From a virus, in IMG/VR virus record IMGVR_UViG_3300025030_000038, positions 310,001 through 374,000 of that record: 64,000 bases of DNA; one strand, written 5' to 3'. The notes under the pieces were generated by a model that saw only the letters and a list, made by a program, of their open reading frames with translations, did not search any database and was not told the DNA's origin. Numbering within the stretch: the stretch's first letter is position 1; every line of letters begins with the position of its first letter. Both the position numbers and the translations under genes were made by a program. Shown piece after piece: positions 3,122 through 54,251 of the stretch.

Positions 3122-3787
3122 ATGAACCTCCGCACCATCACAGCCAGTTTGGATAACATTGCCTCTCTCTTCCAGGAGAATCACGAATCCCTTGGGATCT
3201 CTGAGAAGGTCGCCATGGACTTCGCCCAACGGTGCGACCTCCTATCGGATGCTCTGGAGAAGACCGCTTCCCAAGAGTTGAAGATTGTCAAAGATGTTGG
3301 CCTGAAGAAGCAACTCCAGTTGCTTCTAAGTAACCCTCCGCGGACCCAGCCTCAGGAGTCTGTTGATGGCGCCACACTCCATGTTGTCCAGGTGTTTTCG
3401 CCTGTAGTCAAGAAGTACATTCCTATGTCGGAGCATCCTCAGGTGGAATCCGCCAAGAGTGAGCTAGCATTCTGGGAAAAGGACCACGCACGGCTCCTGA
3501 AGAACTTCAGGGAAGCCATTTCAGATGAAAGTAAGTCCGACAAGACGGCCGTGCGGTGTGACCTGAAGACCGCAGCGGGGGCTATGGCCAATGTGTGGGC
3601 TGTGATTGACCCACAGCCGAATGACGGTCCTCACCTACAGGATATAGACCTGATTGTCGATCTGGAAAACACCGTGAGGCTTATCCATCATGGTAAGAAC
3701 ATTCAGTTCTGGCCTAATGAGAGGGACGCCAAGAAGGATGCAGAGGCCAGGATCAAGGCACGGGATGGAAAGAAGACGGCATACTAG
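3122..3787 (+). CDS. Tagged virion-associated protein
   Basis: Protein of 221 aa, function not recognised. Its first 50 residues (TASLDNIASLFQ...GISEKVAMDFAQRCDLLSD) match the N-terminal module of the protein at 1085 almost position by position, while the rest is different. AGGA precedes the ATG. The gene ends three bases before the prohead-protease gene, so it is co-transcribed with head-assembly genes. The shared module may be a recruitment or sorting signal; this is inference. Confidence 0.78.
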   Translation: MNLRTITASLDNIASLFQENHESLGISEKVAMDFAQRCDLLSDALEKTASQELKIVKDVGLKKQLQLLLSNPPRTQPQESVDGATLHVVQVFSPVVKKYIPMSEHPQVESAKSELAFWEKDHARLLKNFREAISDESKSDKTAVRCDLKTAAGAMANVWAVIDPQPNDGPHLQDIDLIVDLENTVRLIHHGKNIQFWPNERDAKKDAEARIKARDGKKTAY

Positions 3788-5214: not shown

Positions 5215-5228
5215 CCGGAGTAAAAGCA

Positions 5229-6497
5229 ATGTCTCGACGCCGACTCACATGGAATTCCCGCGGTGCATCAGCACCCCCAGCAACCCCAGGCTATCAGGAG
5301 CCAAGTGTTCACCCAGCTGCGTATCCAGATCCCGAGGCGGATGCCTACGAGAATGGTGATACATCGGCTTGGGCAGAAGACCCCAAGGCAGGCCCATACC
5401 CAAATGGGGCGGCTCCAGCCCTTCCAGGTACCTCGGAGCCCCAGGGGCACCCAGCTACTGACCCCGCGCACTACTTCCCAGGTGGGGCAGGCAAGCAGGC
5501 GTCCCGCCAGCTTCGTGCAGCCCTGGAAGCAAAGGCTGCACAGTGCATTCGCATTGCGTCCGCAATGCTTGGCAGGAAGGCCAGCCCAACCGCACTTGAG
5601 GATCAGGCACTTGATCTCATGAACCTGACGGATCGCCAGATTCAGGCAGCTCTTCGTCGCCTAGCGGAGACAGAAGAGAAGGAAGAGCCAAAGGCTGAAG
5701 AGCCCAAGGAAGATGCCAAGAAGGAAGCCAAGAAGTCGGAAGAGGAGCCCAAGGAAGAGCCAAAGGCTGAGGAGCCCAAGAAGGAGGCCAAGAAGTCGGA
5801 AGAGGAGCCAGAGGCTGAAGAGCCCAAGGAAGACGACAAGGCAGCCAAGAAGGCAGCCTATTGGGCCAAGCAGGCAGCGTTCTGGGCAAAGAAGGCCGAA
5901 GAGGAAGAGGCCAAGAAGGACGAGAAGCCAGAGGCCGACAAGGAAGAGGGCAAGAAGGCTGGCGAGGATGAGCCCGATGGCGATGAGCCAGAGGCCGACA
6001 AGGAAGAGGGCAAGAAGAAGGCCGGTCAGAACGATCCAGGCTACTTTGCTGGAGAGCTAGACCCCGAGGAAGAGGCGATGCTTGCATCGATGCTCGCTGA
6101 GGAAGAGGCTCCAGTGGTTGCCGATGACGTGCTGATGGACGACGCGGAGGACCCAATGGGGTTCATGGACTCGGATGACGGGATGTCGGACGATGACATG
6201 TCTGCGATCTACGGTTCCAAGGCAGCAGGCGAGCTTCCCCCAGCACTTCAGAAGATCAATGACGAGAAGGCTGAAAAGGCCGAGAAGGAAGAGAAGAAGG
6301 CAGACGAGGAAGAGGAAGTCAAGGAAGAGGAGCCCAAGGAAGCCAAGAAGGCATCAGCTCTTCGCCCACAGCCCCGTAGCCCATCGAATGGCGTGAAGAC
6401 CCTGGGCCAAGTGGCCAAGGTTGCCTCCTCGTCTGAAGTGAGCGACCTGTCGAAGCTCTGGGAATCGGCTCCAGACATCTCCAAGGCATTCGGCTGA
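5229..6497 (+). CDS. Prohead scaffold/core-like protein, Lys/Glu-rich
   Basis: Protein of 422 aa. The N-terminal 85 residues are Pro/Ala/Gly-rich, followed by a short helix (ASRQLRAALEAKAAQCIRIAS). Residues 145-270 consist of imperfect charged repeats around PKAEEPKEDAKKEAKKSEEEP and EPEADKEEGKKAG, predicted helical or coiled. An acidic block (MLASMLAEEEAP, DDGMSDDDMS) and AAGELPPALQKINDEKAEKA come next, the latter shared with the protein at 1085. Position between protease and capsid genes and composition fit a scaffold degraded during maturation; the role is inferred from context. A GGAGTAAAAGCA ribosome site precedes the ATG. Confidence 0.7.
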   Translation: MSRRRLTWNSRGASAPPATPGYQEPSVHPAAYPDPEADAYENGDTSAWAEDPKAGPYPNGAAPALPGTSEPQGHPATDPAHYFPGGAGKQASRQLRAALEAKAAQCIRIASAMLGRKASPTALEDQALDLMNLTDRQIQAALRRLAETEEKEEPKAEEPKEDAKKEAKKSEEEPKEEPKAEEPKKEAKKSEEEPEAEEPKEDDKAAKKAAYWAKQAAFWAKKAEEEEAKKDEKPEADKEEGKKAGEDEPDGDEPEADKEEGKKKAGQNDPGYFAGELDPEEEAMLASMLAEEEAPVVADDVLMDDAEDPMGFMDSDDGMSDDDMSAIYGSKAAGELPPALQKINDEKAEKAEKEEKKADEEEEVKEEEPKEAKKASALRPQPRSPSNGVKTLGQVAKVASSSEVSDLSKLWESAPDISKAFG

Positions 6498-6549
6498 TCA
6501 ACGCGCGGTAGAGTAGCTAGCCTCCCTGCCATTGAGTAGGAAAGGTTAC

Positions 6550-6581
6550 GAAGCCATCCGGGGGGAACCACGGGTGGCTTC
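6550..6581 (+). terminator. Hairpin terminator after scaffold-like gene
   Basis: A 10-bp stem, GAAGCCATCC (6550-6559) with GGGTGGCTTC (6572-6581), one G-T wobble and a 12-base loop, lies 52 bases after the scaffold stop. The following bases are only moderately T-rich (AGCTTTATCTGGTTT), so termination may be partial. Confidence 0.55.
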
Positions 6582-6627
6582 AGCTTTATCTGGTTTATAG
6601 CCTCTCCCCCTCAGGAGCTTTTCACAC

Positions 6628-7032
6628 ATGACCACCCTGCGTTCCAAACTCATCCGCCTAGCACATGAGAACCCGGCTCTCCGGCCCCAGTTGCTCCCAC
6701 TACTCAAGGAAGCAGGGGATGACATCAAGAAGGATGCAGAAACTCTCAAGGACCTGATTGAATCGAAAGTCAAGCTACCAGTAGTCAAGGCATCGGTTAG
6801 CAAGCTTGGCGATCAGCCCTCTGTATCTGGGGTCCTGGGGTTTGAGCCCAGGGACTCATGGGCCAATGGAATCCTGGAAAACTCCAAGCATGCAAAGTTC
6901 ATATTTCACTTCAGTGACATGACCCTACAGATTGTGACAAGCCACAAGACCGAGAAGATGCGCAAAACCAAGTTCAAGGACCCACAGGATGGGTTGGCTA
7001 AGTTGGACAAGTGGGTCAAAGCACAGGGCTAG
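6628..7032 (+). CDS. Small protein with LRSKLIRLAH N-terminal tag
   Basis: Protein of 134 aa, unknown function. The first 29 residues (TLRSKLIRLAHENPALRP, then QLLPLLKEA) form a module also present at the start of the proteins at 14255, 53364 (minus) and 53659 (minus). The remainder is a compact domain (FIFHFSDMTLQIVTSH, KDPQDGLAKLDKWVK) with no family recognised. CAGGAGC lies 10 bases before the ATG. It lies between two hairpins, upstream of the capsid genes. Confidence 0.78.
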   Translation: MTTLRSKLIRLAHENPALRPQLLPLLKEAGDDIKKDAETLKDLIESKVKLPVVKASVSKLGDQPSVSGVLGFEPRDSWANGILENSKHAKFIFHFSDMTLQIVTSHKTEKMRKTKFKDPQDGLAKLDKWVKAQG

Positions 7033-7099
7033 GTCCAGCAAATCGACACCCCATTTTCTTTTCTCACCGTTTTCTTTCCAATACCCACCGTCTTAGTTA

Positions 7100-7190
7100 G
7101 GGAACCAAGATTCCCAATTCCTGTCTGGACTTCAGCATGGTGCTGACTAGAGACAGGGATGTATGACCAGACCCTCCCCTGAAAACAGGG
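7100..7190 (+). promoter_or_regulatory. Structured leader with three hairpins before capsid genes
   Basis: The 179-base gap before 7212 holds three inverted repeats on the plus strand. These are GGGAA/TTCCC (7100-7104 with 7111-7115); CCTGTCT/AGACAGG (7120-7126 with 7151-7157) enclosing TCAGCA-TGG-TGCTGA (7132-7146); and CCCTG-AAAA-CAGGG (7177-7190). No clear sigma70 promoter was seen. The array could stabilise or regulate the capsid mRNA, or mark an end of transcription; which is not decidable here. Confidence 0.5.
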
Positions 7191-7211
7191 AGCAAAGACA
7201 GGAGCCTTCAA

Positions 7212-7898
7212 ATGGCTTTGCTTGGACAGGCGAGCGGTGGTTTTACGGAGAGTTCTTCGGCACTGAGGATTCTGCATGTTGGTGTTCGTAACACCATCAG
7301 CGTTCTCTCGGCCGATGCTTTCACGCAGACCAATCCGCCAATCGTATCGACAGTCGGAACAGTATCTACCTCGCCCGGCGCACTTACCGAAGTTCTCGGT
7401 GTGCTCTCTGGCTCTGTGGCGTTTGCGCGCCCAGACGCAGGTAACAACTCCGTTGGCGGACCGCACCTTGCGGCAGGTCTCGTAGCTCCAGTAGCTGCGA
7501 CCCATATCCTCCCAGTGGGTATGTTCATCAACAACGCCTCGGGCAATGCTTACGAGAACCTTCCAGCGGCGGCGTCTGGCAAGGGTCCCTATGTCAGCGC
7601 CATGGGCACGTACGGCAGCCGTCTCTATGAGACCCAGCTCCTCGTCACCACGGGTGGTGTTGCGGCGGGTACCGCACTCACATACCTCGCGGGTCTGAAG
7701 CTCGCAGCATCACAAAACGGCTGGCTCATGCCAACGTACGTGTGGAACGGCGCAGCTTGGATCATCGTCGACGTCGGCGGTGGTTTCAACACGCTAGAGA
7801 GCATCAATGCCGGTGCCGTTGCGGCAACGACCATTGGTATCCTCAAGGTCGCACCTGATTCGGCGATGTCTGAAATCGTCTTTGACCAGAGGATCTGA
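7212..7898 (+). CDS. Putative head decoration/virion structural protein
   Basis: Protein of 228 aa, Ala/Gly/Val/Thr-rich with a beta-rich pattern typical of virion proteins, no transmembrane segment and no enzyme motif. It is 11 bases upstream of the major-capsid candidate and shares its unusual codon choice (many CTC, CGC, GTC and ATC codons compared with the GGG/CTT-rich genes around), consistent with high expression. ACAGGAG lies 9 bases before the ATG. Decoration or head-accessory protein is the likely role by position; no family signature is claimed. Confidence 0.65.
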   Translation: MALLGQASGGFTESSSALRILHVGVRNTISVLSADAFTQTNPPIVSTVGTVSTSPGALTEVLGVLSGSVAFARPDAGNNSVGGPHLAAGLVAPVAATHILPVGMFINNASGNAYENLPAAASGKGPYVSAMGTYGSRLYETQLLVTTGGVAAGTALTYLAGLKLAASQNGWLMPTYVWNGAAWIIVDVGGGFNTLESINAGAVAATTIGILKVAPDSAMSEIVFDQRI

Positions 7899-7909
7899 GG
7901 AGAACTCCA

Positions 7910-8785
7910 ATGACAACCGTAGACAACGCACTCAAGCAGAAGATCATTTCGGACTACATCAAGACCGCCGCTGGCCGTAACAAGCTCGCCGCGTCGATGA
8001 CGCAGCCCCTCCGCACACGCCGTGACTACATGAGCGTTGGTCGCAAGACCTTCCTCGTGGAGCAACTGCCAGATGGGGCACTGCCCATCTATGACAAGGA
8101 CCCGGATGTGACCGCATACGTGGTCGGTGAAGAGGGTGAGAACATTCTCGCAATCACCAAGCCACGCAGGGTAATCTTCCCGCTGTTCGAGATTGCATCG
8201 AACCCCGAGATTCCTCTGACCCAGATCAAGGAGCGTCGTTTCGATCTGATCGAGCGCGCCCAGGATCTGGCCCGCGCGATGATCCAGGCCGCAGAAGACG
8301 AACGCGTCTTCGCAGTCATGGACGCCATTGCAGTCAACGGCTTCGACTCGCTTCCTGGCGGGACGAACCCTGACGTGCCCGTGGTTGCACCAGTCAATGG
8401 TGCGGTCCTCGCCGACGCATTCTCGCTCATTGAACGCCACGACCTTCGGGTTGCCCGCGTGTTCATGAACGCGCGTGACTACGCGGACGTCCGTAAGTTC
8501 GGCCGCGACATTCTGGATATCGAGTCTCAGGCAACCCTGCTCAAGACTGGTCTCCAGGCGACACTCTGGGGCGCTCAGGTCATCACCTCACGTCTCGTGC
8601 CAGCAGGTACAATCTATTGTACCTGTGAGCCCGAAATGTTTGGACGTATTCCCGTACGCACGGAATTGACAGTTTTGTCAGCAGACGATCCCAAGGCACG
8701 CACCATCGGATTCTCGGTGTTTGAAAACCTAGGTATCGGAGCTTACAACCCCCGTGGTCTGACCCGCCTCACGATCACTCGCTGA
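7910..8785 (+). CDS. Major capsid protein (HK97-type candidate)
   Basis: Protein of 291 aa, the probable shell subunit. It has the order expected of an HK97-like coat protein without a long delta domain: an N-terminal arm (res 1-45), a long helix region (KERRFDLIERAQDLARAMIQAAEDERVFAVMDAIAV), a central segment (LIERHDLRVARVFMNARDYADVRKFG) and a C-terminal strand-rich part (GAQVITSRLVPAGTIY, RIPVRTELTVLSADD, FENLGIGAYNPRGLTRL). GAGGAGAA precedes the ATG. Codon choice indicates high expression, a strong hairpin follows, and protease and scaffold-like genes lie upstream. Assigned on layout and pattern without a database search. Confidence 0.8.
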   Translation: MTTVDNALKQKIISDYIKTAAGRNKLAASMTQPLRTRRDYMSVGRKTFLVEQLPDGALPIYDKDPDVTAYVVGEEGENILAITKPRRVIFPLFEIASNPEIPLTQIKERRFDLIERAQDLARAMIQAAEDERVFAVMDAIAVNGFDSLPGGTNPDVPVVAPVNGAVLADAFSLIERHDLRVARVFMNARDYADVRKFGRDILDIESQATLLKTGLQATLWGAQVITSRLVPAGTIYCTCEPEMFGRIPVRTELTVLSADDPKARTIGFSVFENLGIGAYNPRGLTRLTITR

Positions 8786-42877: not shown

Positions 42878-45130
42878 ATGGCTACTAAGCAGAACAAACT
42901 CAAGTACTCTGAGGAGTTCGACAACGCATTATATACGAAATTCCTGAGCGCCATTTCTGCTAATGCTGTCACAAATCCCATCGACAGTGCACTGACCGCT
43001 GATCGTCTCGCGGACACAGGTGTCGCAAACAACTACCATGGTTGCTACCCTGGTGCACCACTTACACTGCCACCTGGACAATACACTTTGTCTGTCTATG
43101 CCAAGGCTGGTGAGTGGACGTGGTTGGCATTAGCTATCAATGTCGTAGGAACTGAGGACCTTAGTTACTTCGATTTGGCCAACGGTGTTGTTGGTACCAC
43201 TCACGCCTCCCAAACACCGAAAATCACTCCGGTTGTTGGGTATCCTGGGTGGTATCGCTGTTCAATTACACGGACAACACCATATTCTACCGCCTTCTAC
43301 TCTGAGATATTCACAGCTTCTGGGAATGGTGGTGCAATCCACGTCGGTGACGCAACGAAGGGCTTGTACTTGTTTGGTTTCCAGCTTGTGCAAGCTAACT
43401 GGGAAGGTCCCTACTGCCCCACTACCGTCCAACCGGTGGATGATGGGAACATCAGAAATATTGACGCTGAGGCACAGAACTTTTTCACTTACAGTGATGA
43501 CCAGACAAATGCAAACTGGGTGAAGACCAATGTGGGCTCCACAACTGGTGGACAAATAGACCCATTTGGTGGAACTACAGCCTGCTTGTTCACTGATACT
43601 GTGGATGGGGCTCCTACGTCACATTACTACAGACAGACTTCTGCGGGTCTACTCGTTGCTAAGCCATTTTCTATCCTCATTTATGCCAAACCCGGAACTA
43701 AGTACATGTTTTCGCTCTGGGACGCCTCCACGGGTACGGCGACTGAGTTTAACCTGCAAACCCTAGTAGTGACGCATACTCCGGCAGTGAGCGGCCGTAC
43801 TGGGCGCATTATACCAGCTCCGAATGGGTTCTATCGTTGTGAAGCAACATGGCCCTCAAATGTTGCTTCAGGAACCTCGTGGATTCTCCAAATCTATGGG
43901 GCAGGAACTGGGACCTACACATATCAGGGTGACGGTACAGGGACCATGACATTCGCTAGGGTCCAGATAAGCCAGTCCAATGTCGTTCACACTGCACCAA
44001 CACTGGCAACAGTTCTCAACACTGGTAGGCCACGGGACCTAACCCCGTCTACACAAACTGGTTCGCTCATCAACTGGGACTTCAGGGGTGGGGTGCTACC
44101 CAACGATGCGGTGTTCCTACGGGCTGCTGGTACGGCTGCCAGTGAGACTGTGCAGACTGGCACCAGCACCGTGGTCACCACAGGTATCACCACTAATATA
44201 CCGCGATTCGGTAAGCGGTTGGATGCCGATGTAATAGGTCTGGTCCTGGAACCTACCAGAATCAACGTCGTTCTACGTAGCACAGATATTTCTAATGCTT
44301 CCTGGCTAAATTCGTTCGGTCTCACATTCAGGAACACTCAGGCACCAGATGGCGGGACAGCTAAGGAGATGATCGCACTGAGTCCTACTGTTTGGCAGTA
44401 CCTGTCTCAGAATCCTCTGGGGGCGGCCGGAATATACACTCAATCCGTGTGGTACAAGTGGGCCTACAGTGGTGTAGGATTCATCCAGACCGTGAATCCG
44501 CCCACAACCACAAATTTCACGACATCCACATTGTGGAAGGTAGTCGAGCAGACTGCCACCCATACTGCTGCAACCTACTACGTCATAAGCCCTACAGAAG
44601 GCACCCTAGAGTCTATTAGTAACGTAGGGGCGTGGGGCGCTCAATACGAAGTTGGGGCGTACAGAAGCGAGCACGTCATAACAGCAGGAGCCTCAGCTAC
44701 TCGCCAGCCGGAGCGTCTGTACCACCCCAATGCCGCTGCCAGCATCACGGGTAAGCTCAAGGTACGTATTGTATTCCGGCCCAAGTCTACTCTTGCCAAT
44801 GCTGACTCAGCTCAAACGATCTGGTACATAAACGGTACCAACTACTGTGAGATTGCCACCACAGGTGTGATGACCGTTGTGGTTGGTGGAACCAGCAACA
44901 CCACGGCAGCTATCGTGTGGGCTCAATATGATACGGTGGACCTTATGGTGGACACAGGCAACAAGGTAGCTGTAGTCACATATAGCGTAAACGGTGGGGC
45001 CACTGTCACTCCCGCAGTGGCAGGAGCAGCACAGCCCGTGGTACCAGCAGGTACAACCTTAGACATTGGTTGCAACGGCGCAACGAATCAGCTCGCTTGT
45101 TGGCTGCTTTCTGTAACAGCAGAGGGCTAA
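42878..45130 (+). CDS. Modular adhesin 5
   Basis: Protein of 750 aa. Two related carbohydrate-binding-like domains at res 1-190 and 200-375 share the phrases YSEEFDNA or YSDDQTNANW, SVYAKAGEW or LIYAKPGTKY, and YRCSI or YRCEA. These are followed by the GTAASETVQTGTSTVVTTGI module with RFGKRLDADVIGLVLEPTRI (about 410-460), another binding-like domain, and a divergent repeat A (QPERLYHPNAAAS, LDIGCNGATNQLACWLLSVT). End of the adhesin series. Confidence 0.72.
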   Translation: MATKQNKLKYSEEFDNALYTKFLSAISANAVTNPIDSALTADRLADTGVANNYHGCYPGAPLTLPPGQYTLSVYAKAGEWTWLALAINVVGTEDLSYFDLANGVVGTTHASQTPKITPVVGYPGWYRCSITRTTPYSTAFYSEIFTASGNGGAIHVGDATKGLYLFGFQLVQANWEGPYCPTTVQPVDDGNIRNIDAEAQNFFTYSDDQTNANWVKTNVGSTTGGQIDPFGGTTACLFTDTVDGAPTSHYYRQTSAGLLVAKPFSILIYAKPGTKYMFSLWDASTGTATEFNLQTLVVTHTPAVSGRTGRIIPAPNGFYRCEATWPSNVASGTSWILQIYGAGTGTYTYQGDGTGTMTFARVQISQSNVVHTAPTLATVLNTGRPRDLTPSTQTGSLINWDFRGGVLPNDAVFLRAAGTAASETVQTGTSTVVTTGITTNIPRFGKRLDADVIGLVLEPTRINVVLRSTDISNASWLNSFGLTFRNTQAPDGGTAKEMIALSPTVWQYLSQNPLGAAGIYTQSVWYKWAYSGVGFIQTVNPPTTTNFTTSTLWKVVEQTATHTAATYYVISPTEGTLESISNVGAWGAQYEVGAYRSEHVITAGASATRQPERLYHPNAAASITGKLKVRIVFRPKSTLANADSAQTIWYINGTNYCEIATTGVMTVVVGGTSNTTAAIVWAQYDTVDLMVDTGNKVAVVTYSVNGGATVTPAVAGAAQPVVPAGTTLDIGCNGATNQLACWLLSVTAEG

Positions 45131-45265
45131 ACCGGGCTCAAGGCTTCAGGCTATTCCCTGAAAGTCAGTAGACCCTTATCCTCAAAAACCAGGAGACCCA
45201 TCCAGGTTCCTGAGGTTCCATATTCGACCTATTAGCTTTGCCACTATCAGGAGGGTCTACCTGAT

Positions 45266-46735
45266 ATGAGTACCGTTTTCTCCCAGACCGATTCGGGTAA
45301 CCAGAAGTCAGCCTTCAATGAGTTGCTGGTTACGGAACCCTTTCCTGTCGTGGCTCAGGGATTCACGTACAACCTCTCCAACGATGCTTTGATTTTGCGC
45401 AAAAATGGTAGTGGCACATCGGCCCAGACCAACAGCATGGCTGTGATCTCTACGGCAGCCGCAAACAACAGTTTTTCTCAATTGCTCTCGCGCAAGTCAG
45501 TCAAATACGTTCCCGGTCAGGGGATTGTGGCTAGGTTCGCTGGGTTCTTCGTTACAGGGGCCACCAACTCAACACAGTACGTTGGCTATGGGTCGGTCAA
45601 TGACGCCTTTGCATTTGGGTACCAGGGAACTACCTTCGGGGTGCTGCGACGTTATGGTGGATCGAGCGAGGTACGCACACTCACAATCACGACCAAATCC
45701 AGTACACTAGAGTCCGTTACGGTTACTTTGAATGGGGTCGCCAAGTTGTGCCCCGTGACCAATGGGGCCGATTCTACTGTGACCGCCAATGAGATCGCAG
45801 CCGTCGACTTCTCTGAGGTGGGGACCAATGGAGGCTGGCAAACCGAAGCAGTCGGCAATACCGTGATCTTCAGGTCGTATCGGTCAGGGTCTCTTCCTGG
45901 AGCCTATTCCGTTGCTGGTTCCACAATTGTCGGGGCCTTCGCCTCATCTGTAGTTGGGGTTGCTGCGAATGACACCAACTTCGTGGCCCAATCTGCCTGG
46001 AGTGATGACCGGGCGGATGCCAAAGTGGAGCTACCCATATTGGACTGGACGAAAGGGCAAGTGTTTCAGATCCGGTTCCAATGGCTGGGTTACGGGATGA
46101 TCACATTCTATGTGGAGAACCCTGCCACAGGCAAGTTTGTGCTCGTGCACCGGATTCAATACGCCGGGACGGCCACCACACCCTCGATCACTAACCCTTC
46201 CCTGCCCTTCATGATGGAGGCGGCCAATACAACTAATGCAACGGTTGTAGGACCCCTCGTCAGTTCTTTTGGGATCTTCCATGAGGGTGAAAATAACCTC
46301 TTCGGTATTGCACGTGGGATTGTGGCAATCAAAACGGGCATCACAACTGAGACCCCAGTCCTGACCATTCGGAATAAGTCGACCTATGCATCAAAGCTCA
46401 ACCGCATCGTTTTGGACATCCACGGGATTGCAGCATCATCTGATGGCACCAAGAATGTAGTGGTGCGAGTCTACCTGAATGCTACGCTGGTTGCAGCGTC
46501 TTTCACGGATGTGTCCGCATCAACATCTCCAGCTTCATATGACACGGCGGCCACGTCCTTTTCAGGGGGTACTTTGCTTCATGGACGTGGTATGGCAAAA
46601 GTAGACAACATTGAGATCCGACATGAAAAACATGGCTCACATGTGCTGAACCCGGGAGAGCAAATCACGGTCACCATACAGAGTGCCGCAAATGTTGACA
46701 TGGTAGTCGGGTCCGAATGGGAGGAGTTGTTCTGA
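45266..46735 (+). CDS. Tail/baseplate-region virion protein
   Basis: Protein of 489 aa without the LamG modules of the preceding genes. Beta-rich throughout (GIVARFAGFFVTGATNSTQY, RSGSLPGAYSVAGSTIVGAF, QVFQIRFQWLGYGMITFYVE), with a C-terminal domain (VVVRVYLNATLVAAS, HVLNPGEQITVTIQSAAN). It is a full-size protein with a strong upstream AGGAGGGT. Likely structural; T4-like baseplate names would be unjustified. The preceding 135-base gap holds nothing notable. Confidence 0.68.
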   Translation: MSTVFSQTDSGNQKSAFNELLVTEPFPVVAQGFTYNLSNDALILRKNGSGTSAQTNSMAVISTAAANNSFSQLLSRKSVKYVPGQGIVARFAGFFVTGATNSTQYVGYGSVNDAFAFGYQGTTFGVLRRYGGSSEVRTLTITTKSSTLESVTVTLNGVAKLCPVTNGADSTVTANEIAAVDFSEVGTNGGWQTEAVGNTVIFRSYRSGSLPGAYSVAGSTIVGAFASSVVGVAANDTNFVAQSAWSDDRADAKVELPILDWTKGQVFQIRFQWLGYGMITFYVENPATGKFVLVHRIQYAGTATTPSITNPSLPFMMEAANTTNATVVGPLVSSFGIFHEGENNLFGIARGIVAIKTGITTETPVLTIRNKSTYASKLNRIVLDIHGIAASSDGTKNVVVRVYLNATLVAASFTDVSASTSPASYDTAATSFSGGTLLHGRGMAKVDNIEIRHEKHGSHVLNPGEQITVTIQSAANVDMVVGSEWEELF

Positions 46736-46962
46736 TGGAGCCCAAGTTCTTCGGCGGAGACCCCGTGAAAGTGGTCGAACATGGCAAGTTCCTCGGCGCC
46801 ACAGGCGTCGTGGACCGGCACACTGAGCATGGAGTTGCAGTGAGGTTCGACGTGCCCCTAGAAACGGTCGTTGACCTGCCACGGTGGCCCTGGACGGAGA
46901 CGTACGTGCAGACCGAGCAACTGTTCCGTGAACAGGCATTGGAACTGCTCCTAGTACGGTGA
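46735..46962 (+). CDS. Small KOW-like protein
   Basis: Protein of 75 aa. ATG at 46735 shares its A with the previous TGA (TGATG), which decides the start over an upstream in-frame ATG. Residues 7-37 (GDPVKVVEHGKFLGATGVVD, AVRFDV) match the KOW pattern of a GDxVKV strand followed by a glycine turn. Possible RNA- or protein-binding small factor; weakly supported. Confidence 0.6.
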   Translation: MEPKFFGGDPVKVVEHGKFLGATGVVDRHTEHGVAVRFDVPLETVVDLPRWPWTETYVQTEQLFREQALELLLVR

Positions 46963-47008
46963 CCCACGCCACTCGCCTCTACTTGGGTTATAGCCCTACC
47001 AGGATACG

Positions 47009-48133
47009 ATGCCTGTTAGCCTAACCACTGGGACTCATTCACCTTGGACACAAGAGGGGCTACAACTTCTTGATAGTTATGCTGAGGGTACCTGTAGTGT
47101 AGCGGAAATTATGGCTTTAACGGGTAAATCTAAGGGTACCATTCTGACCACTGCCTCAAGAATGGGCAGGACTAGAACGGCCAGAAAGGAGCCTTTGGAC
47201 CCCAACATATCGAAGGTTGTTCGTGGTTTTGTGGTGGCCGGTATGGGCCTTGGGGAAATAATGGGGGCATCTGGTCTGACCAGACTACAGGTGCGACAGC
47301 ATATTGACATGTCTAGGGGGGCGTTGAGCAAGGAGATTGGAGATATCAGGGGGGCTTCTCATCTGGTTAGGATTGCTGTGGAGGAAGAACAGGACCTGAT
47401 TCGTGCAGGCACCACCCCGTTAGAGCGATGGGGAAGTGTTGACCCACAACGCTGGGGGGCCATTTTGAATGGGGTTCTGGGGGATCCTAGAGAGTTCTCA
47501 CAGCTTGCACAACGGAGGTTCTCTAGGGAGGAGATTATTGGGGCTTTGACAGCCCACACTATCGGCCTCAAAGCCACAGATGAGATTATCCGGCTGTTCA
47601 GTATCACAGAAGTTAAGCTCGCCCTCCTCTGTCAGTTGTTCGGGGTAGATCAAGCCCTATGGGCAGGGATCAAGCGGTCCAGAACTGCCCTCTCTGACTA
47701 TAGTACGGAAAAGAGGGTGGTGCCTAAGGGTATTGGGTATGGGGCTAAGACTCGTGCGGGCACACCATTTCAAGGCATGCTGACAATGAGGAGTGCCACC
47801 GAGGCAATGAGGGCAGGAGAGTTGAGCCGGGAAGGAAAAGCATGGTTTTATGAGGCTATGGTCTACCCACTGTCAGACGGGAGATCTTACCTGCCAGACT
47901 TCTGGGTGACAGATGTCTCCCTAAGCGAGGCACAACAACAGCTGGGGGAGTGGCCAACCTTGAAAGATATCCGAACTTTTATTTCTCGGCATCTGGTGAG
48001 AATTGAGGATACAAAAGGATGGTTTGCCCCCCATCACCCTTCCTATGACAAGATCAAGCAATTCCGAATTGATTTTCCTGACCTTCCTTTTCAAGTGCTT
48101 CTCATTTCACGGAGGAACCGACAATGGCTGTAG
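47009..48133 (+). CDS. HTH protein with PD-(D/E)XK-like nuclease domain (probable homing nuclease)
   Basis: Protein of 374 aa. Residues 12-55 and 70-110 are helix-turn-helix-like (CSVAEIMALTGKSKGTILTT, GLGEIMGASGLTRLQVRQHI). Residues 255-300 (MRSATEAMRAGELSREGKAW, FYEAMVYPLSDGRSYLPDFW) resemble the N-terminal part of PD-(D/E)XK homing nucleases, with Glu265, Glu282 and Asp297. The expected E-x-K strand afterwards is not visible (VTDVSLSEAQQQ), so it may be degenerate. Its stop overlaps by 10 bases the start of the split-intein virion gene. An intergenic mobile gene is likely. Confidence 0.66.
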   Translation: MPVSLTTGTHSPWTQEGLQLLDSYAEGTCSVAEIMALTGKSKGTILTTASRMGRTRTARKEPLDPNISKVVRGFVVAGMGLGEIMGASGLTRLQVRQHIDMSRGALSKEIGDIRGASHLVRIAVEEEQDLIRAGTTPLERWGSVDPQRWGAILNGVLGDPREFSQLAQRRFSREEIIGALTAHTIGLKATDEIIRLFSITEVKLALLCQLFGVDQALWAGIKRSRTALSDYSTEKRVVPKGIGYGAKTRAGTPFQGMLTMRSATEAMRAGELSREGKAWFYEAMVYPLSDGRSYLPDFWVTDVSLSEAQQQLGEWPTLKDIRTFISRHLVRIEDTKGWFAPHHPSYDKIKQFRIDFPDLPFQVLLISRRNRQWL

Positions 48134-48621
48134 TCTGGCATCCCAATGATCTTCTAACCCAAGGGGGTCTGGACATATTTTTGACAAACGCATCGGGCAA
48201 TCCTTCCGATGCTTTTTCCATCACCTATGCCATTTTTTTCGTGGCTCCAGGACCCACAGAGGTTCTGATTGGGTCCCCAACTAGGATTCCTGCTCATCCC
48301 AACGTTGGGGAATATTTCGCTTCCCTCCAGGTGCCCGGCTCTGCCACCCCGGGCGACTACAGGATCCGTTGGACCTTCCAACAGTTCTCAAGCTCCCCTG
48401 CCCAACAGGTAGTCCAGGAATGGGCCGTTGTCGTCGACAGTACCATCATCGTTCCAGGTGCCTACTCGACCAACGTCCAAGGCATGATCGACAAGTTGAG
48501 GATGCTCCTCAGGGACCAGTGCCTTGGGGGGGAAGAAACGGTTGAGCTGGATGTAGAGGGGGAACGGATGATAGTCAGATTGGATGACCTTTGGGAAACC
48601 CTCGAAGTCAATCCCGGGTAA
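48124..48621 (+). CDS. Virion protein N-extein fused to short split-intein IntN
   Basis: Protein of 165 aa made of two parts. Residues 1-132 are an Ig-like phage virion domain ending MIDKLRMLLRDQ, the N-extein. From Cys133 (codon 48520) a 33-residue IntN follows: CLGGEETVELDVEGERM, then IVRLDDLWETLEVNPG, matching intein block A (Cys1, x-G-x-x-T-V-E pattern). The protein then stops. The matching IntC and C-extein are encoded at 49605-50498. Trans-splicing would join RDQ to CPDRDYHF, giving a 297-aa virion protein, probably in the tail or neck. Such N-short inteins resemble atypically split phage inteins. Splicing itself is not shown. Confidence 0.85.
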   Translation: MAVVWHPNDLLTQGGLDIFLTNASGNPSDAFSITYAIFFVAPGPTEVLIGSPTRIPAHPNVGEYFASLQVPGSATPGDYRIRWTFQQFSSSPAQQVVQEWAVVVDSTIIVPGAYSTNVQGMIDKLRMLLRDQCLGGEETVELDVEGERMIVRLDDLWETLEVNPG

Positions 48622-48651
48622 GAGCTATTCCTTCTATAGACGTGCTTAGGT

Positions 48652-49695
48652 ATGCGCAAATCACCTAAGCCTGTTGTTACAGTCCCACATCCACTTCTAG
48701 TCCCCATGTTGGAGAAACATGGGGTAACCAATGAAGAATTTGTGAAGAGAAACCATCTTCCAGCAGACCGGAGAGACCTTATCCTGGAGGTCCGATCCCT
48801 AATTATCACGGAACTTCATGCGGCGGGAACTCCTTGGAAAAAGATGCGGGAGATTACAGGGTTATCTGCGATTCAGAAATATACCCGAGCAATGTGGAAC
48901 CCAGCTTCTAGGCAGAATAGACTTGATAACTCAGCAAAAAATGGCCGGGCAGGAAAGGGCAGGAAGTACCCCACGGCCTCTGTTAAGCTCAAAAAACTAT
49001 GGGAGGATGGGTTTTTCGATTTCCATAAGGGAAGGGTTCGCACCCCTGAGGATATTGCCAAACAGAGAGAATCCTTCACTCCTGAGGTTCTTGCCATGAT
49101 GTCAGAGAGGCAGAAGGCCAATTGGAAAGACCCAGCATTCAGGGCCAAGACTCTTGAGGCCATGAATGCTCCCGAACATCGTGCCCTCCTGTCGAAGCAA
49201 AAGACCCTCTGGATGAAAGAGCATCCTGACCACAACAGTCATGGCAAAGGGCAGTGGATGGATACACCCAAAGGGGTTGAGCCCCGTGGGTACGTGAGAA
49301 GCTCCTATGAGGTAGCTGCCATAGATCATTTGGAGGGGGACCCTAGGGTGCTTGGTTATGAATATGAGAAGGTGCTGTACCTTTCGTCAATAACCCTGGA
49401 GAAATGGGTCGGGAAATGGATCCTTCCAGATTTCCTGGTCACCTACTCAGATGGTAGGATTGTGTTGGTGGAGGTGAAGCCAGCCTATGTACTCAAGTCA
49501 CGCCCAGAGAATGATGAGGCTATCGAACGCCTTAGGGTAGCAGAGATGGAAGCTTCCGCCCGCGGCTGGGGGTTTGCCATCTGGACCGAAGAGGAGCTGA
49601 AGGAATGCTTACTGAGACGCAAAAAGAAAAACTCCAAGCCTCCTATCGAGCCGGAACCCTCCGAGTCCGTTCTGTCTCTCCTGGTGGGGAAGTAG
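48652..49695 (+). CDS. PD-(D/E)XK homing endonuclease inside fractured intein gene
   Basis: Protein of 347 aa lying between the two intein halves. Residues 55-200 contain DNA-binding repeat-like segments (TPEDIAKQRESFTPEV, ERQKANWKDPAFRAKTLEAM). Residues 215-330 form a TnsA-like/PD-(D/E)XK nuclease: SSYEVAAI with Glu220, ILPDFLVTYSDGRIVLVEVK with Asp260 and E274-V-K276, then a helix and AIWTEEEL. It is probably the homing enzyme of this intein-containing site. The last 91 bases overlap the IntC gene in another frame, and the IntC ribosome site lies inside it. Confidence 0.82.
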   Translation: MRKSPKPVVTVPHPLLVPMLEKHGVTNEEFVKRNHLPADRRDLILEVRSLIITELHAAGTPWKKMREITGLSAIQKYTRAMWNPASRQNRLDNSAKNGRAGKGRKYPTASVKLKKLWEDGFFDFHKGRVRTPEDIAKQRESFTPEVLAMMSERQKANWKDPAFRAKTLEAMNAPEHRALLSKQKTLWMKEHPDHNSHGKGQWMDTPKGVEPRGYVRSSYEVAAIDHLEGDPRVLGYEYEKVLYLSSITLEKWVGKWILPDFLVTYSDGRIVLVEVKPAYVLKSRPENDEAIERLRVAEMEASARGWGFAIWTEEELKECLLRRKKKNSKPPIEPEPSESVLSLLVGK

Positions 49696-50498
49696 AGTGG
49701 CGTCAGGTTGAAAGAGTGCACCAAGCACAGATTGGGGCTGAGACGGTTTGGGAATTGGTAACGGATTATGGGGCATCTGTGGTTACTGGCGGACATCGGA
49801 TCTATACCTCACCAACAGAGGCTGTTGAGGCGAAGGACCTTCAAGCAGGTGCTTATGTATTGGCCGTTGTTGGAGGTCAGATTGCCTACAGTCGAGTCAG
49901 GGGGCTCCATCCACTCCCACCTAGGGATGTCATGTATGACATCACGGTTGAGGGCAACCACAACCTTGTGCTGTCCAAGTCCTCAATAACGGGTCACAAC
50001 TGCCCTGATCGCGATTATCACTTCGCTCCTCCAGAGGCTGAGGGGAACATTGGGGCTTACAATCGGGTCTTTGGCCAGATATGGCGAGAGGATGAGCTAT
50101 TTTGTTACCTTGAGCGGGGATTGGACTGGTTTAATATGATGCCTCCCATGACTGAGGGGCTCGACACCATTGATAAGCTCGTCATGGAAAAGCCAGCGTG
50201 GCGGACCGCCATCCTCTGGGAGGCCATCTCCCACGCCTGCTTTGCCCTTGCGGCTATGATGGTCCATGAAGAGTTCGACTACTCAATTGGCGGCATTTCG
50301 TTGTCCATTGAGCGATCCTCCAAGTATGAGTCCCTCAAGCAGAACGCGGAATCCCAGTTTGATAAGGCGGCGGAGGCTAAGGCTAGGACAGTTAAGTTCT
50401 TGAGAGGAATTTCACAGCCTAAGTATGGGATAGGGATAAAATCGGCATTTGGAAGTTCGGTGGGTAGGGGTGTGCTTTCACCTCGGAATTTCCTTTAA
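49605..50498 (+). CDS. Split-intein IntC fused to virion protein C-extein
   Basis: Protein of 297 aa. Residues 1-132 are IntC: LRVRSVSPGGEVEWRQVERV, block B TGGH (Thr61, His64), GAYVLAVVGG, block F VMYDITVEGNHNLVL, and block G with terminal His131-Asn132. Cys133 (codon 50001) is the +1 nucleophile. The C-extein (133-297: CPDRDYHFAPP, IGAYNRVFGQIWREDE, EFDYSIGGISLSIERSSKYE, FGSSVGRG) is a virion protein that needs the N-terminus encoded at 48124. ATG 49605 is the only plausible start, with GAGGAG about 8 bases upstream, within the nuclease gene. All key splice residues are present. Confidence 0.86.
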   Translation: MLTETQKEKLQASYRAGTLRVRSVSPGGEVEWRQVERVHQAQIGAETVWELVTDYGASVVTGGHRIYTSPTEAVEAKDLQAGAYVLAVVGGQIAYSRVRGLHPLPPRDVMYDITVEGNHNLVLSKSSITGHNCPDRDYHFAPPEAEGNIGAYNRVFGQIWREDELFCYLERGLDWFNMMPPMTEGLDTIDKLVMEKPAWRTAILWEAISHACFALAAMMVHEEFDYSIGGISLSIERSSKYESLKQNAESQFDKAAEAKARTVKFLRGISQPKYGIGIKSAFGSSVGRGVLSPRNFL

Positions 50499-50564
50499 TC
50501 CATTAGTTTCGCATAGTTATGAAATAGTAAGAAACCCCGAACCCCACACCCAAAGTACAGGATA

Positions 50565-50589
50565 GGAATTGTCAGCCACCGACAATTCC
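50565..50589. repeat. Perfect 9-bp inverted repeat
   Basis: GGAATTGTC (50565-50573) and GACAATTCC (50581-50589) with a 7-base spacer lie directly upstream of a sigma70-like promoter. It may be an operator or an early-transcript hairpin blocking read-through; no T run follows. Confidence 0.7.
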
Positions 50590-50592
50590 GAG

Positions 50593-50620
50593 TTGACAAG
50601 ACCCTCCGAGTGGGTATAGT
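50593..50620 (+). promoter_or_regulatory. Sigma70-like promoter for homing endonuclease gene
   Basis: TTGACA (50593-50598), 16-base spacer, TATAGT (50615-50620). The predicted transcription start falls at or near the ATG at 50627, so the message would be nearly leaderless. This is the clearest promoter in the window, and the paired repeat overlaps its upstream edge. Confidence 0.65.
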
Positions 50621-50626
50621 GAGGGC

Positions 50627-52060
50627 ATGAGTGATGTCCTCTGCCCTGCCTGTAAGAAGTCAATGTCCCACAAGGGACTCCCTAGCCATGCTTTAGCCTG
50701 CCTTTCCTGGAACACAGAGATCGGTATTCCTTACGCAGAGTTCAATTGGGAGGCCTACTTCAAGCGGGGCCCATACGCTGACGGGTTGGTGGAAGGAACA
50801 GATTGGGTTCGATGCCAGGAGTGTTTCCTTACGGGTAGGGATATGCGGTTCAAGCGGATGATGGACCACCTGAAGAAGGTCCATGGTATGACCGAAGAAA
50901 CCTACCGGGCCAAGTTCCCTGAAGCCTCTGTGAGAATTGGGGCGACACTTCAGCGGAGGGTGGCCACTGTTCAGGACAGGTATGGAGTGGACAATGTGTT
51001 CCAGGCGGGGGATGTGAAGGCTCAGTCCAAGGAGACAATGCTTATCAAATATGGTGGTTGGGGCCTTCAGTCTCCAGAGATCAAGGCCAGGGCATCTGCT
51101 ACCAATTTGGAGAGGTATGGGGCCGAGAACCCATTTGGGTCTGAGGAGATTCAGAGGCGGATCCGTGTCTCCAATCTCGAACGGTTTGGGGTTGAGAATC
51201 CCAATCAGGCCCCAGAGGTAATGGCGAAGAGGATACAGACCAATCAAGAGAAGTATGGGGTCGGTCACTATCTTCTAACGGACACCTTCAAGGTGCAGTT
51301 CAAGGATACCTCAATGAAGAACTGGGGTGTCCGGCACCCCATGATGTCTCCTGGAGGCAAATTGGTCTGGGAGACCAGCAATTTGAAGGTTTTTGGGGTC
51401 CGTACCCCATTGCTTTTGCCAGAAGTACAGAAGCGAGCCTACGAGACCAACCTAGCCAACCACAATGGCCAGCATTCCCAGAAGTGCCCTGATGTCTTGG
51501 CCAAAGCCCGAGAGACGTGGTTGGAGAAGTACGGGACTGATAACCCCTCGAAGGTAGAAGCTGTGTGGTTCAAGATCAAGGAGGTATGGAATGGCAAGTA
51601 TGGGGTGCCCTATCCCCCTCAGTTCCTGTGGCGCAATCAGAAGCATGAGTCTCCAAATGGGTTGGAACAACGGGTACAGGAGTTGTCTCCTCCTGGGGTT
51701 CTCTTCACAGGGGACCGATCACGTCCTAGCCGGGTGTATCCTGTTAGGCGTCCGGGGACTCCTAAGGACAGGTACCCGGACTTCATCGTCCTGACGGGGG
51801 GGCAGATGGAAGCTCATCGTAATGGGGCAGACATCAAGTTGTTTCGCATCCCAGCGGTCATTGAGGCGTTTGGTGACTGGTGGCACGGCCCTGAGAAGAC
51901 TGGGAAGTCCCGAGAGGCACACCATGATGATGTGGTCGCCTTCTACAAGGATTGTGGAATGCGGTGCTTGATCCTTTGGGAGCGAGATGTGAATAAGCGC
52001 CCCCAAGAGGTAGCCGAGAGGATTCGACGGTTTCTGATAGACGTGATGCAGTCAGTATAG
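50627..52060 (+). CDS. EDxHD-type homing endonuclease with zinc fingers and KYG repeats
   Basis: Protein of 477 aa. N-terminal zinc motif C6-x2-C9...H21-x3-C25, then a C2H2-like finger (CQEC...HLKKVH, about res 65-85). Residues 110-340 hold about eight repeats built on ERYGxxNP/KYGVxxP with a following K/R-rich helix, a DNA-binding array. The C-terminal domain has RYPDFIVL, IEAFGDWWHG, HHDDVVAFYKDCGMRCLILW and ERDV, the Vsr-like fold of the I-Bth0305I/EDxHD homing family. It follows the fractured intein gene by 128 bases and has its own promoter. Appears intact. Confidence 0.8.
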   Translation: MSDVLCPACKKSMSHKGLPSHALACLSWNTEIGIPYAEFNWEAYFKRGPYADGLVEGTDWVRCQECFLTGRDMRFKRMMDHLKKVHGMTEETYRAKFPEASVRIGATLQRRVATVQDRYGVDNVFQAGDVKAQSKETMLIKYGGWGLQSPEIKARASATNLERYGAENPFGSEEIQRRIRVSNLERFGVENPNQAPEVMAKRIQTNQEKYGVGHYLLTDTFKVQFKDTSMKNWGVRHPMMSPGGKLVWETSNLKVFGVRTPLLLPEVQKRAYETNLANHNGQHSQKCPDVLAKARETWLEKYGTDNPSKVEAVWFKIKEVWNGKYGVPYPPQFLWRNQKHESPNGLEQRVQELSPPGVLFTGDRSRPSRVYPVRRPGTPKDRYPDFIVLTGGQMEAHRNGADIKLFRIPAVIEAFGDWWHGPEKTGKSREAHHDDVVAFYKDCGMRCLILWERDVNKRPQEVAERIRRFLIDVMQSV

Positions 52061-52072
52061 AAGGAGGACTCA

Positions 52073-52669
52073 ATGGGTGGTTTTGTCAATATGGATGGTC
52101 CGGGGCCCAAGTTGGTCACAGTCAAGTTCCCTAGGCTGGGGGCGTTTTGCGAGGTTCAGATGGACCTTGGGGAGGGAGGGATTACCTTCACGTTTACGGG
52201 TAAGGTGCCGGGGCAGTTGAAGGAGGGGGAGTCGTTTGTCTTCGACCCGGATGAGGATCAGACGTGGTGGATGCAGGTTACGAGTCCCCTGTCCAACCTC
52301 AGGACAACCAAGAAGTTCTCTGCCAGGGTCACAATCTCCCGTATCCATGGGGAGGTTGAACACCTCACAGGGGATGTTCACAAGGCTATGGAAAAGCTTG
52401 GATCCGACCTGTTCCCAAGTAGCTCTCCTTTGGTTGTAACGGATAGGCTGTCCCCAACTCGTGGTCAAGTCACCTTAACGGTGACCGCCAACAGTATCCC
52501 AAAGGCATTTAGAGCACAGCGGGTAGGAAAGCAGATTCGGGAGGTAATCCTGACCGGATTGCCACAAGAGCGGGAGTGGAAGCATCCCGGTGTGTCCCTA
52601 TCTCAGACATGCACCCCCGTAGATGCCAATGGGCAGGCCACCTTGAAGTTGGTGGCCTCGATCTGCTAG
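52073..52669 (+). CDS. Unknown globular protein
   Basis: Protein of 198 aa, beta-rich in the N-terminal half (ITFTFTGKVPGQLKEGESFV, FSARVTISRIHGEVEHLTGD) and C-terminal third. AGAAGGAGG lies 7-10 bases before the ATG. Its stop overlaps by 4 bases the stop of the leftward tagged gene, marking the end of the rightward unit. No family recognised. Confidence 0.66.
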   Translation: MGGFVNMDGPGPKLVTVKFPRLGAFCEVQMDLGEGGITFTFTGKVPGQLKEGESFVFDPDEDQTWWMQVTSPLSNLRTTKKFSARVTISRIHGEVEHLTGDVHKAMEKLGSDLFPSSSPLVVTDRLSPTRGQVTLTVTANSIPKAFRAQRVGKQIREVILTGLPQEREWKHPGVSLSQTCTPVDANGQATLKLVASIC

Positions 52670-53364
52670 CCCATCTTCCCTGAGGATTTAGCTTCCGAAA
52701 CCACTTCCTCGGGAACATCACTCACTGGGATTTCCTTGTAGACTCTGTTATCACCCTCAAAGAGCTGACCTGTGCTGTAGCTTTTGGCCCGGGGCTGTGG
52801 GCGTTTTCCTCGGCTGCCTAGACGCCATTCGACCATGACCCCTTTGGCACCACCATTCTTCTGGATCTCAGTGGCGTAGAAGTAAAAGTCACTCCCATCC
52901 CTGTCGGGGAGCTGGTACCAAACCTTCGCCTTGGGGGTCCAACGGGCGGCGGCGCTCTTGATGAGGGAGGGTTTCTTGCCCGACTTGAGGAACTCGTCGA
53001 TTTGCTTAAGGGTGGCCTTCACGGGTGGGAAGGTCGCCTCAAAGCGGCGATCCAAGGACTTCTTGAGCACCTCCAGGGCCTCTGGGGTGTCCTGGTCCAT
53101 GACACTATGTACGTCGCCATCTACCTTGTGGGCCGCTTCCAGGAGCAACCCAAGGCGGTAGATATTCGACCGGCCCTTCTTGGCTTCCGCCTCGCTCACC
53201 CGCTTGTCATGCTGGGTCAGTTTCGATTTCAGGACCTCCAGGAACATCTGGACGGTGCCAGAGGGGAGGGCTGCTGTGCGGTCTGCCAACAGGGGAAGGA
53301 GATGGGGCCGGAGAGCCGGGTCCGAATGGGCGAGACGGATGAGTTTGGATCGAAGGGTGGTCAT
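52666..53364 (-). CDS. Protein with LRSKLIRLAH N-terminal tag
   Basis: Protein of 232 aa. The first 27 residues (TLRSKLIRLAHSDPALRP, then HLLPLL) are the common N-terminal module. Residues 50-135 are helical and charged. Residues 140-205 look like a compact beta domain with W/Y residues (KVWYQLPDRDGSDFYFYATE, VMVEWRLGSRGKR), reminiscent of a WGR-like fold; this is a weak impression. AGGAA precedes the ATG. Last gene of the leftward unit. Confidence 0.72.
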   Translation of the reverse strand: MTTLRSKLIRLAHSDPALRPHLLPLLADRTAALPSGTVQMFLEVLKSKLTQHDKRVSEAEAKKGRSNIYRLGLLLEAAHKVDGDVHSVMDQDTPEALEVLKKSLDRRFEATFPPVKATLKQIDEFLKSGKKPSLIKSAAARWTPKAKVWYQLPDRDGSDFYFYATEIQKNGGAKGVMVEWRLGSRGKRPQPRAKSYSTGQLFEGDNRVYKEIPVSDVPEEVVSEAKSSGKMG

Positions 53365-53377
53365 TGGTGGGTTCCTG

Positions 53378-53659
53378 TTAGGCGTGGTCTTTGGACCAAC
53401 TCATGGCGTCCTGGGCAAGGTCCCAGATCCAGTGGGTGTCATCGTCCAGGGGGCCTCCCTTGTCTTTGGCTCCGAACTCATCGGCAGCGTCTTCGGCCAG
53501 TTCGGTGGCGGTATCAAATTCGCTGGCATGATTCCTCATCCACTTGGTGACATTGGGCTTGTTGAAGGCTTGGGCAGCCTCCTTCAAGAGTGGGAGCAGC
53601 TGGGGCCTAAGCTCGGGATTGTCATGGGCGAGACGGATGAGTTTGGAACGCAGGGTCAT
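53378..53659 (-). CDS. Small protein with LRSKLIRLAH N-terminal tag
   Basis: Protein of 93 aa. The start is set at ATG 53659, where the product begins MTLRSKLIRLAHDNPELRP; an upstream in-frame ATG would bury this module. The remaining 60 residues are acidic and helical (TKWMRNHASEFDTATELAED). It lies directly before the other tagged leftward gene, so the two are probably co-expressed. Confidence 0.72.
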   Translation of the reverse strand: MTLRSKLIRLAHDNPELRPQLLPLLKEAAQAFNKPNVTKWMRNHASEFDTATELAEDAADEFGAKDKGGPLDDDTHWIWDLAQDAMSWSKDHA

Positions 53660-53706
53660 GTTTGGGGGTCCTGATAGGGGGACTATCAGGGCAGGGGCAT
53701 GGGACT

Positions 53707-53958
53707 CTACGGGGCTTCCCGGTAGAGCTTCACGCATTCCGCGCAGTAATTGGAGCCATTGCCGGTCACCATGGCCTCGCTGTAGCGGTGGGTGAGGACC
53801 ACCTCGGGCTTGTCCCAGCCTTCTTTGAAGGTGTAGCCACAGAGGGCTTGGATGTCTTTGAGTCCCCCTCCTGGCTTGAGTTTGGTGGCCTTGGTGACGG
53901 GGCGGATGTGGTTGACGTAGGCTGGGTAGGTTTCGCAGATGACATGGGTGGGGAGCAT
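53707..53958 (-). CDS. Small Cys-containing protein
   Basis: Protein of 83 aa (ICETYPAYVNHIRPVTKA, SNYCAECVKLYREA). CAEC near the C-terminus together with Cys9 and Cys40 might bind zinc, but the spacing is not a classic ribbon. Part of the leftward unit. No family recognised. Confidence 0.6.
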   Translation of the reverse strand: MLPTHVICETYPAYVNHIRPVTKATKLKPGGGLKDIQALCGYTFKEGWDKPEVVLTHRYSEAMVTGNGSNYCAECVKLYREAP

Positions 53959-53987
53959 GGTTGTTACCTCTTCTCGGGGGTCAGGAT

Positions 53988-54251
53988 TTAGAACTTCAGG
54001 ATTCCCAAAAGGGACCAGTCACTGGAATCCCATGGGGCCATGGGGGCCGGGAGGGGTGGAAGCTTCCCTGATGCCCGGTCTCGGGCAATCCCTCGGTCCA
54101 TGGCTTCCGATTCTTCTCGACAGGCACGGCAGTGGTTGGCAAGAAGGTTGAATCGGTGGCAACATTTGGAGCACACGGGTTTGGCCACGGAGGGGTCATC
54201 GGTGGGAGTGCCACAGATTCGGCAAGTTCCTGGGGGTGATTTTCGGCTCAC
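53988..54251 (-). CDS. Small zinc-finger protein
   Basis: Protein of 87 aa. The GTG start overlaps the upstream TGA (GTGA), so translation is coupled. The Cys pairs CRIC, CSKC and CRAC within the first 50 residues suggest one or two zinc fingers; the C-terminus is Pro-rich. Unknown role within the HD-hydrolase operon. Confidence 0.66.
   Translation of the reverse strand: MSRKSPPGTCRICGTPTDDPSVAKPVCSKCCHRFNLLANHCRACREESEAMDRGIARDRASGKLPPLPAPMAPWDSSDWSLLGILKF

Follow-up and report, generated by a model that had tools for sequence, protein, structure and literature searches.

The window analysed here, a 64,000-nucleotide stretch (positions 310,001 to 374,000) of the 485-kb viral record IMGVR_UViG_3300025030_000038, contains a gene for a head–tail connector-like virion protein that is broken in two inside an intein, with a free-standing nuclease gene lying between the halves (Table 1); an unannotated deposit of the same genome exists as LR745208.1 (“uncultured phage”). 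An open reading frame (ORF) of 165 amino acids (aa) at 48124-48621, whose ATG is preceded by the Shine–Dalgarno sequence GGAGG, encodes the N-terminal part of the virion protein (the N-extein) and closes with a 33-aa N-terminal intein fragment (IntN, CLGGEETVELDVEGERMIVRLDDLWETLEVNPG). The nuclease ORF follows, and within it starts a 297-aa ORF (49605-50498, overlapping the nuclease by 91 nt, with AGGAG 8 nt upstream of its start) that encodes the C-terminal intein fragment (IntC) and the remainder of the virion protein (the C-extein). IntC carries block B (TGGHRIY), block F (VMYDITVEGNHN) and a terminal TGHN, after which the C-extein begins CPDRDYHF; the ORF scores 25.1 against the NCBIfam profile TIGR01443 (intein_Cterm, cut-off 15.6) and matches the Pfam profile Intein_splicing with E=8e-4 but under the cut-off. 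This anatomy had been proposed, with its coordinates, in a sequence-only reading of the window, and we find it correct throughout. The tight packing of the ORFs recurs in most relatives, where the stop codon of the nuclease gene overlaps the start of the IntC ORF or is separated from it by a few bases at most, and the IntC ribosome-binding site sits in the tail of the nuclease gene.

Table 1. Features of the fractured connector gene in the window, and fractures at a second site (site 2) in relatives (locus coordinates; L numbers denote individual loci).
Feature	Position	Strand	Basis
N-extein, 132 aa, head–tail connector-like virion protein	48124..48519	+	ORF calls; contiguous with C-extein in 111 distinct relatives
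IntN, 33 aa from Cys1 (= Cys133), plus stop codon	48520..48621	+	aligns with IntN of 21 other loci, including cis inteins L016 and L037
Free-standing nuclease gene, 347 aa	48652..49695	+	PF08722 match, Foldseek TnsA matches, motif in homologues
AGGAG, likely ribosome-binding site for IntC ORF, within nuclease gene	49592..49596	+	sequence; layout common to most relatives
IntC, 132 aa, blocks B, F and G, terminal His-Asn	49605..50000	+	sequence, profiles; Hint fold modelled on cis homologue
C-extein, 165 aa, Cys+1, and stop	50001..50498	+	ORF; head–tail connector annotation of relatives
Site-2 fracture, L028	5388-7014
Site-2 fracture, L030	5599-8002
Site-2 fracture, L032	4612-7020
Site-2 fractures, L132, L134, L135, L140, L141, L230, L232

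The nature of the interrupted gene is given by its relatives. Viral contigs scanned with the C-extein, the N-extein and their alignments yielded loci representing 133 distinct C-extein alleles, and in 111 of these the extein gene runs uninterrupted, codon for codon, across exactly the junction at which the window gene is broken (107 called automatically by a gap of 0, and four by eye, in which LRDN is followed directly by NPDRNYH). The remaining 22 loci have an intein at the junction codon, split in 20 and continuous (in cis) in two; because the bait in one of the scans was IntN itself, the 22/133 ratio of occupied to total genes is not a prevalence. Among these homologues we looked for, and did not find, a first ORF that naturally ends without block A or a second ORF that starts independently with a Hint domain of its own, and the codon-exact contiguity in relatives speaks against a pair of independent proteins and against a Hint domain that stands alone. 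The C-extein aligns with the annotated head–tail connector of phage Tunturi_5 (29% identity over 90% of the C-extein, E=5e-10) and more weakly with that of phage PaBG, such that, of the “tail or neck protein” suggested earlier, the neck assignment stands and head–tail connector/neck protein is the better description. A search of prokaryote genomes with IntN plus the junction returned no relative. Four loci carry a second N-extein-like stretch upstream of the gene (L038 2817-3080, L037 1503-1799, L041 527-835 and L023 3293-3574), weakly similar (27-36%) and probably a paralogous virion domain.

Splicing chemistry requires Cys, Ser or Thr at the first C-extein position (+1) and therefore leaves a one-residue scar in the mature protein. 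Cys or Ser occupies +1 in all 22 occupied genes and in only one of the 111 empty ones (Fisher p = 4e-24, computed over the 132 loci of the tree), the usual residue of empty genes being Asn (96/107 of those called automatically; the others have Lys, Asp, Ala and, once, Ser). This association survives correction for shared ancestry, the +1 residue changing with occupancy in 12/12 phylogenetically independent pairs (p = 0.0005). Such covariation provides strong, albeit indirect, evidence that splicing is under selection, and is the best pointer to splicing short of experiment.

The catalytic residues of the intein itself are conserved. Cys1, the block-B His and the terminal Asn are retained in 22/22 inteins at this junction (hereafter site 1), although copies are often only 40-50% identical, and all 22 display the class 1 signature (Cys/Ser1, block-B TxxH, terminal Asn and Cys/Ser/Thr+1). 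Two relatives (L016/L029 and L037) possess the site-1 intein in cis as a mini-intein, and the window IntN aligns with both. An AlphaFold model of the L016 cis intein, built with 14 relatives, adopts a Hint fold (predicted local distance difference test, pLDDT, 95.4), and a fold search using this model returned inteins and related Hint domains as its best 50 PDB matches; the PDB sequence search found no relative, matches arising by fold search only. Mapped onto the model, the fracture falls in the loop between the helix at 21-30 and that at 37-45, i.e. past the first helix, and IntN spans 29-37 aa across the 20 split site-1 loci. By these features the window intein is a class 1 Hint domain, and it almost certainly trans-splices.

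The gene within the gap had been read as a PD-(D/E)XK nuclease, a call borne out by its match to PF08722 (Tn7_TnsA-like_N; E=1.2e-9, 39 bits, cut-off 26.5) and now refined to TnsA-like; three further homologues also pass the PF08722 cut-off. The protein comprises an N-terminal helical/helix-turn-helix (HTH)-like region, a middle repeat region and a C-terminal TnsA-like PD-(D/E)XK domain (RSSYE ... LPDF ... VEVK). Its model is of moderate confidence (pLDDT 74), and Foldseek places TnsA (1t0f/1f1z, E about 1e-5) as the best, and the only significant, PDB fold match. Each of the 14 intact homologues retains the RSSYE, PDF and ExK motif, allowing for conservative changes (RSTYE, RSSFE or PDI, for example). 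A single-sequence search of viral contigs with the nuclease gave zero matches; a two-sequence alignment was required, which recovered four relatives, all at the site-1 fracture, and the gene is present once in its own genome. L040, L041 and L092 have shorter nucleases, in which some 70-100 aa are missing from the middle repeat region but both ends and the active site are kept. We also considered the gene as a T4 gp4-like head completion gene and rejected this, the continuous connector gene of empty relatives having no such gene inside.

Comparison of the 20 split site-1 loci reveals the gap in several states: an intact TnsA-like gene in 14, a remnant in five and an HNH gene in one. In three of the remnants (L061/L126, L132 and L140) only the first ~20-35 and last ~5-15 nuclease codons are left, whereas L138 retains the nuclease domain only and L141 the N-terminal half plus debris. 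All five remnant loci keep a working-looking split intein, including the +1 Cys/Ser. In L219 the TnsA-like gene is replaced by an HNH gene (2779-3612; PF01844, E=1.6e-9) whose HNH part weakly resembles Cas9/IscB HNH models. The remnants and the L219 gene lead us to conclude that the split intein outlives its nuclease and that the gap accepts another; decay or replacement of the nuclease while the split intein persists is thus shown by sequence comparison across these loci.

The connector gene is also invaded elsewhere. At a second site in relatives (DEF^YSIGG, site 2; Table 1), the inteins begin with Ser1, have Ser/Thr at +1 (empty site-2 genes mostly have Asp) and are split at the homologous point. 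The 8/8 tabulated split copies, and nearly all of the site-2 fractures listed in Table 1, contain the [KR]H motif NX, which has been described for cysteine-independent inteins (Pasch et al., PMC10189870), making the site-2 inteins candidate cysteine-independent split inteins of natural origin, with a short IntN. The nuclease in the site-2 gap is Vsr/DUF559-like, and an alignment of it found ten loci, all at site 2 of the connector gene. A cis copy occupies site 2 in L136, and in L041 a third site (FGPF^GRGVL) is occupied by a Ser1 intein in cis, such that a single ORF (2363-3739) holds the site-1 IntC plus a complete cis Ser1 intein (FGPF^GRGVLSP). Five genes (L132, L134, L135, L140 and L141, in each case at locus positions of about 5000-8400) are fractured at site 1 as well as at site 2, yielding three polypeptides, two different split inteins and as many as two nuclease genes, whether intact or remnant; on this sequence arrangement, two trans-splicing reactions would be needed to join the three pieces. 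Our literature search found no natural three-piece gene of this sort, which is no proof that none exists. Ser is also present at +1 of some intein-free sites where Asp or Asn is usual (L156 at site 1; L133, L041, L219, L189 and L206 at site 2), and is possibly the scar of a lost intein.

The distribution of the intein over the extein tree is scattered. Twenty changes are needed for the 22 occupied rows (12 of them forced by supported branches), no fewer than with shuffled labels; occupancy therefore does not track vertical descent, a pattern that fits what homing predicts. In the intein tree the four cis copies form four separate tips, each amid split ones, and parsimony favours re-fusion to cis after nuclease loss, although a nuclease gene spreading into cis inteins would produce a similar picture.

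Taken together, these observations are best rationalized as a fractured virion gene in which a trans-splicing split intein is accompanied by a homing nuclease that spreads the block, a reading whose splicing, cleavage and homing steps are deduced from comparison and to which we assign a probability of a little under nine in ten. The neighbouring ORFs would be translated into N-extein–IntN (165 aa) and IntC–C-extein (297 aa), whereupon docking of the 33-aa IntN with the 132-aa IntC would complete a Hint domain of class 1 whose split lies just past the first helix. Cys1 and Cys+1 would then mediate the N–S acyl shift and trans-esterification, and cyclization of the terminal Asn would release a 297-aa head–tail connector protein with the junction RDQ–CPDRDYHF. 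The TnsA-like nuclease would most likely cut intein-free copies of the gene in co-infecting phages, repair copying the whole IntN–nuclease–IntC block including the +1 codon; after fixation the nuclease decays or is replaced, while the split intein stays, being needed to rebuild an essential virion protein.

Several observations weigh against this interpretation. A match to phrog_218 (head closure, E=3e-9) is confined to the TnsA-like domain (residues 215-318 of 347), and this resemblance to T4-type head-completion proteins leaves some formal room for a role other than homing. Identity is lower beside the insertion, as co-conversion would have it, with p=0.18, 0.03 and 0.01 at identity cut-offs of 0.7, 0.75 and 0.8; the signal is thus dependent on the cut-off and only suggestive. 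Between the nuclease tree and the intein tree there is only loose congruence (Mantel r=0.47, p=0.02), and the nuclease has therefore not simply descended with the intein; since every pair of the nuclease, intein and extein trees is moderately correlated, co-descent and nuclease exchange are not told apart. One could suppose that the intein trans-splices while the gap gene is an unrelated nuclease (of head-completion or transposase type, for example) that landed in a tolerated gap, a notion aided by the phrog_218 match, by similarity (36% over 25%) to a head completion protein from phage ME3 and by the unrelated HNH gene housed in L219. We consider this unlikely, given that the TnsA-like family was recovered in viral contigs only at site 1 with its active-site residues in every intact copy, that occupancy is dispersed across the extein tree, and that homologous site 2 has a nuclease family of its own recovered only there, such pairing of site and nuclease being a prediction of homing.

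It is very improbable that the two ORFs make separate proteins bearing degenerate Hint remnants, with the virion protein a non-covalent pair: some inteins do decay to cleavage-only forms, but the catalytic residues persist here in every copy despite extensive divergence, and the +1 Cys/Ser is maintained against an Asn background even where the nuclease is broken. An RNA intron in the gap, or an assembly or sequencing error mimicking a split gene, is scarcely credible and is refuted by the comparative data. Nuclease genes within genes are typical of group I introns, yet an Rfam search of 44000-54000 gave zero matches, the gap is almost wholly coding and is flanked by block A and blocks B/F/G, the split recurs independently in 20 distinct contigs with differing gap contents, and the LR745208.1 sequence agrees exactly over IntC, the C-extein and residues 1-312 of the nuclease.

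Beyond the fractured gene as such, we see an even chance that this N-short split-intein lineage keeps its gap as a reusable docking bay for unrelated nucleases (TnsA-like and HNH, with Vsr-like at site 2) that are swapped or decay, with some proteins built from three polypeptides via Cys1 and Ser1 inteins, and with reversion from split to cis after nuclease loss.

The fractured gene in the window is genuine and its split intein is N-short, an arrangement whose kind is known; what is new is the nuclease family, the interchangeability of nucleases and the double fracture. Dassa et al. (2009, NAR 37:2560; cited in PMC11766414) described fractured genes in which a split intein is accompanied by a free-standing gene for a homing endonuclease. 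As in those, a break inside the intein divides the host gene into two ORFs and a free-standing nuclease gene lies between them, the setting is phage/metagenomic, and unsplit homologues exist; the window gene differs in that its split lies after the first helix and not near the canonical endonuclease site, and in that one gene is fractured at two sites among relatives, with three nuclease families. The nuclease of the original fractured genes reportedly belongs to the Vsr-like EDxHD family; that of the window is a TnsA-like PD-(D/E)XK enzyme instead, a Vsr-like nuclease appearing only at site 2 of relatives.

The split geometry likens the window intein to N-short atypically split inteins, in which IntN measures 15-37 aa and of which AceL-TerL and GOS-TerL are split after helix alpha-1 (S2; PMC13014065); the window intein shares both the IntN length and the split after helix alpha-1. 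Unlike AceL-TerL, GOS-TerL, VidaL and PolB16 OarG (S1 split), its host is a head–tail connector gene, not a terminase or polymerase, and a nuclease gene occupies the gap; VidaL gives a modest structural match to the cis intein model (TMq 0.62). In jumbo phage MIJ3, PolB is split with an HNH gene between the halves (PMC6892783), similarly an intein-split jumbo phage gene with an interposed nuclease ORF; the MIJ3 intein, however, has Ser1, a polymerase host and an N-half spanning block A to N4, as against Cys1, a virion protein, a TnsA-like nuclease and an N-short split in the window. The nuclease domain shares its fold and E/PD/ExK motif with Tn7 TnsA (PF08722; PDB 1t0f, 1f1z), from which the window protein is distinguished by an N-terminal DNA-binding-like region and a gene position that mark a homing-type gene.

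The surroundings of the gene contain further nuclease-like ORFs. Directly downstream lies a Zn-finger/DUF7487 homing-type nuclease (window 50627-52060) with homologues in 45/133 relatives, 40 of the 45 within about 1.5 kb downstream of the connector gene. Upstream, a 374-aa ORF (47009-48133), HTH-like at its start and possibly PD-(D/E)XK at its end, overlaps the start of the N-extein; a homologue is found near the connector gene in only one other relative (L067). The genome harbours four further inteins in continuous frames, at about 270.8 (L005), 293 (L003), 411 (L004) and 419-420.5 kb (L001), their hosts judged by eye to be a RecD-like helicase, a clamp-loader/DnaX-like protein, a UvrD-like helicase and a DnaB-like helicase, respectively. 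No second fractured gene of the site-1 family was found in this genome.

A single gene thus displays many stages of the homing cycle: empty, occupied by a cis mini-intein, split with an intact, decayed or swapped nuclease, and doubly broken. This makes the origin of split inteins, and their possible return to cis, a question testable both by comparison and at the bench. A TnsA-like candidate joins the homing nucleases, and the relatives supply several natural N-short Ser1 split inteins with the [KR]H motif of cysteine-independent inteins. The five genes that combine Ser1 and Cys1 split inteins in one protein constitute a natural candidate for tandem trans-splicing.

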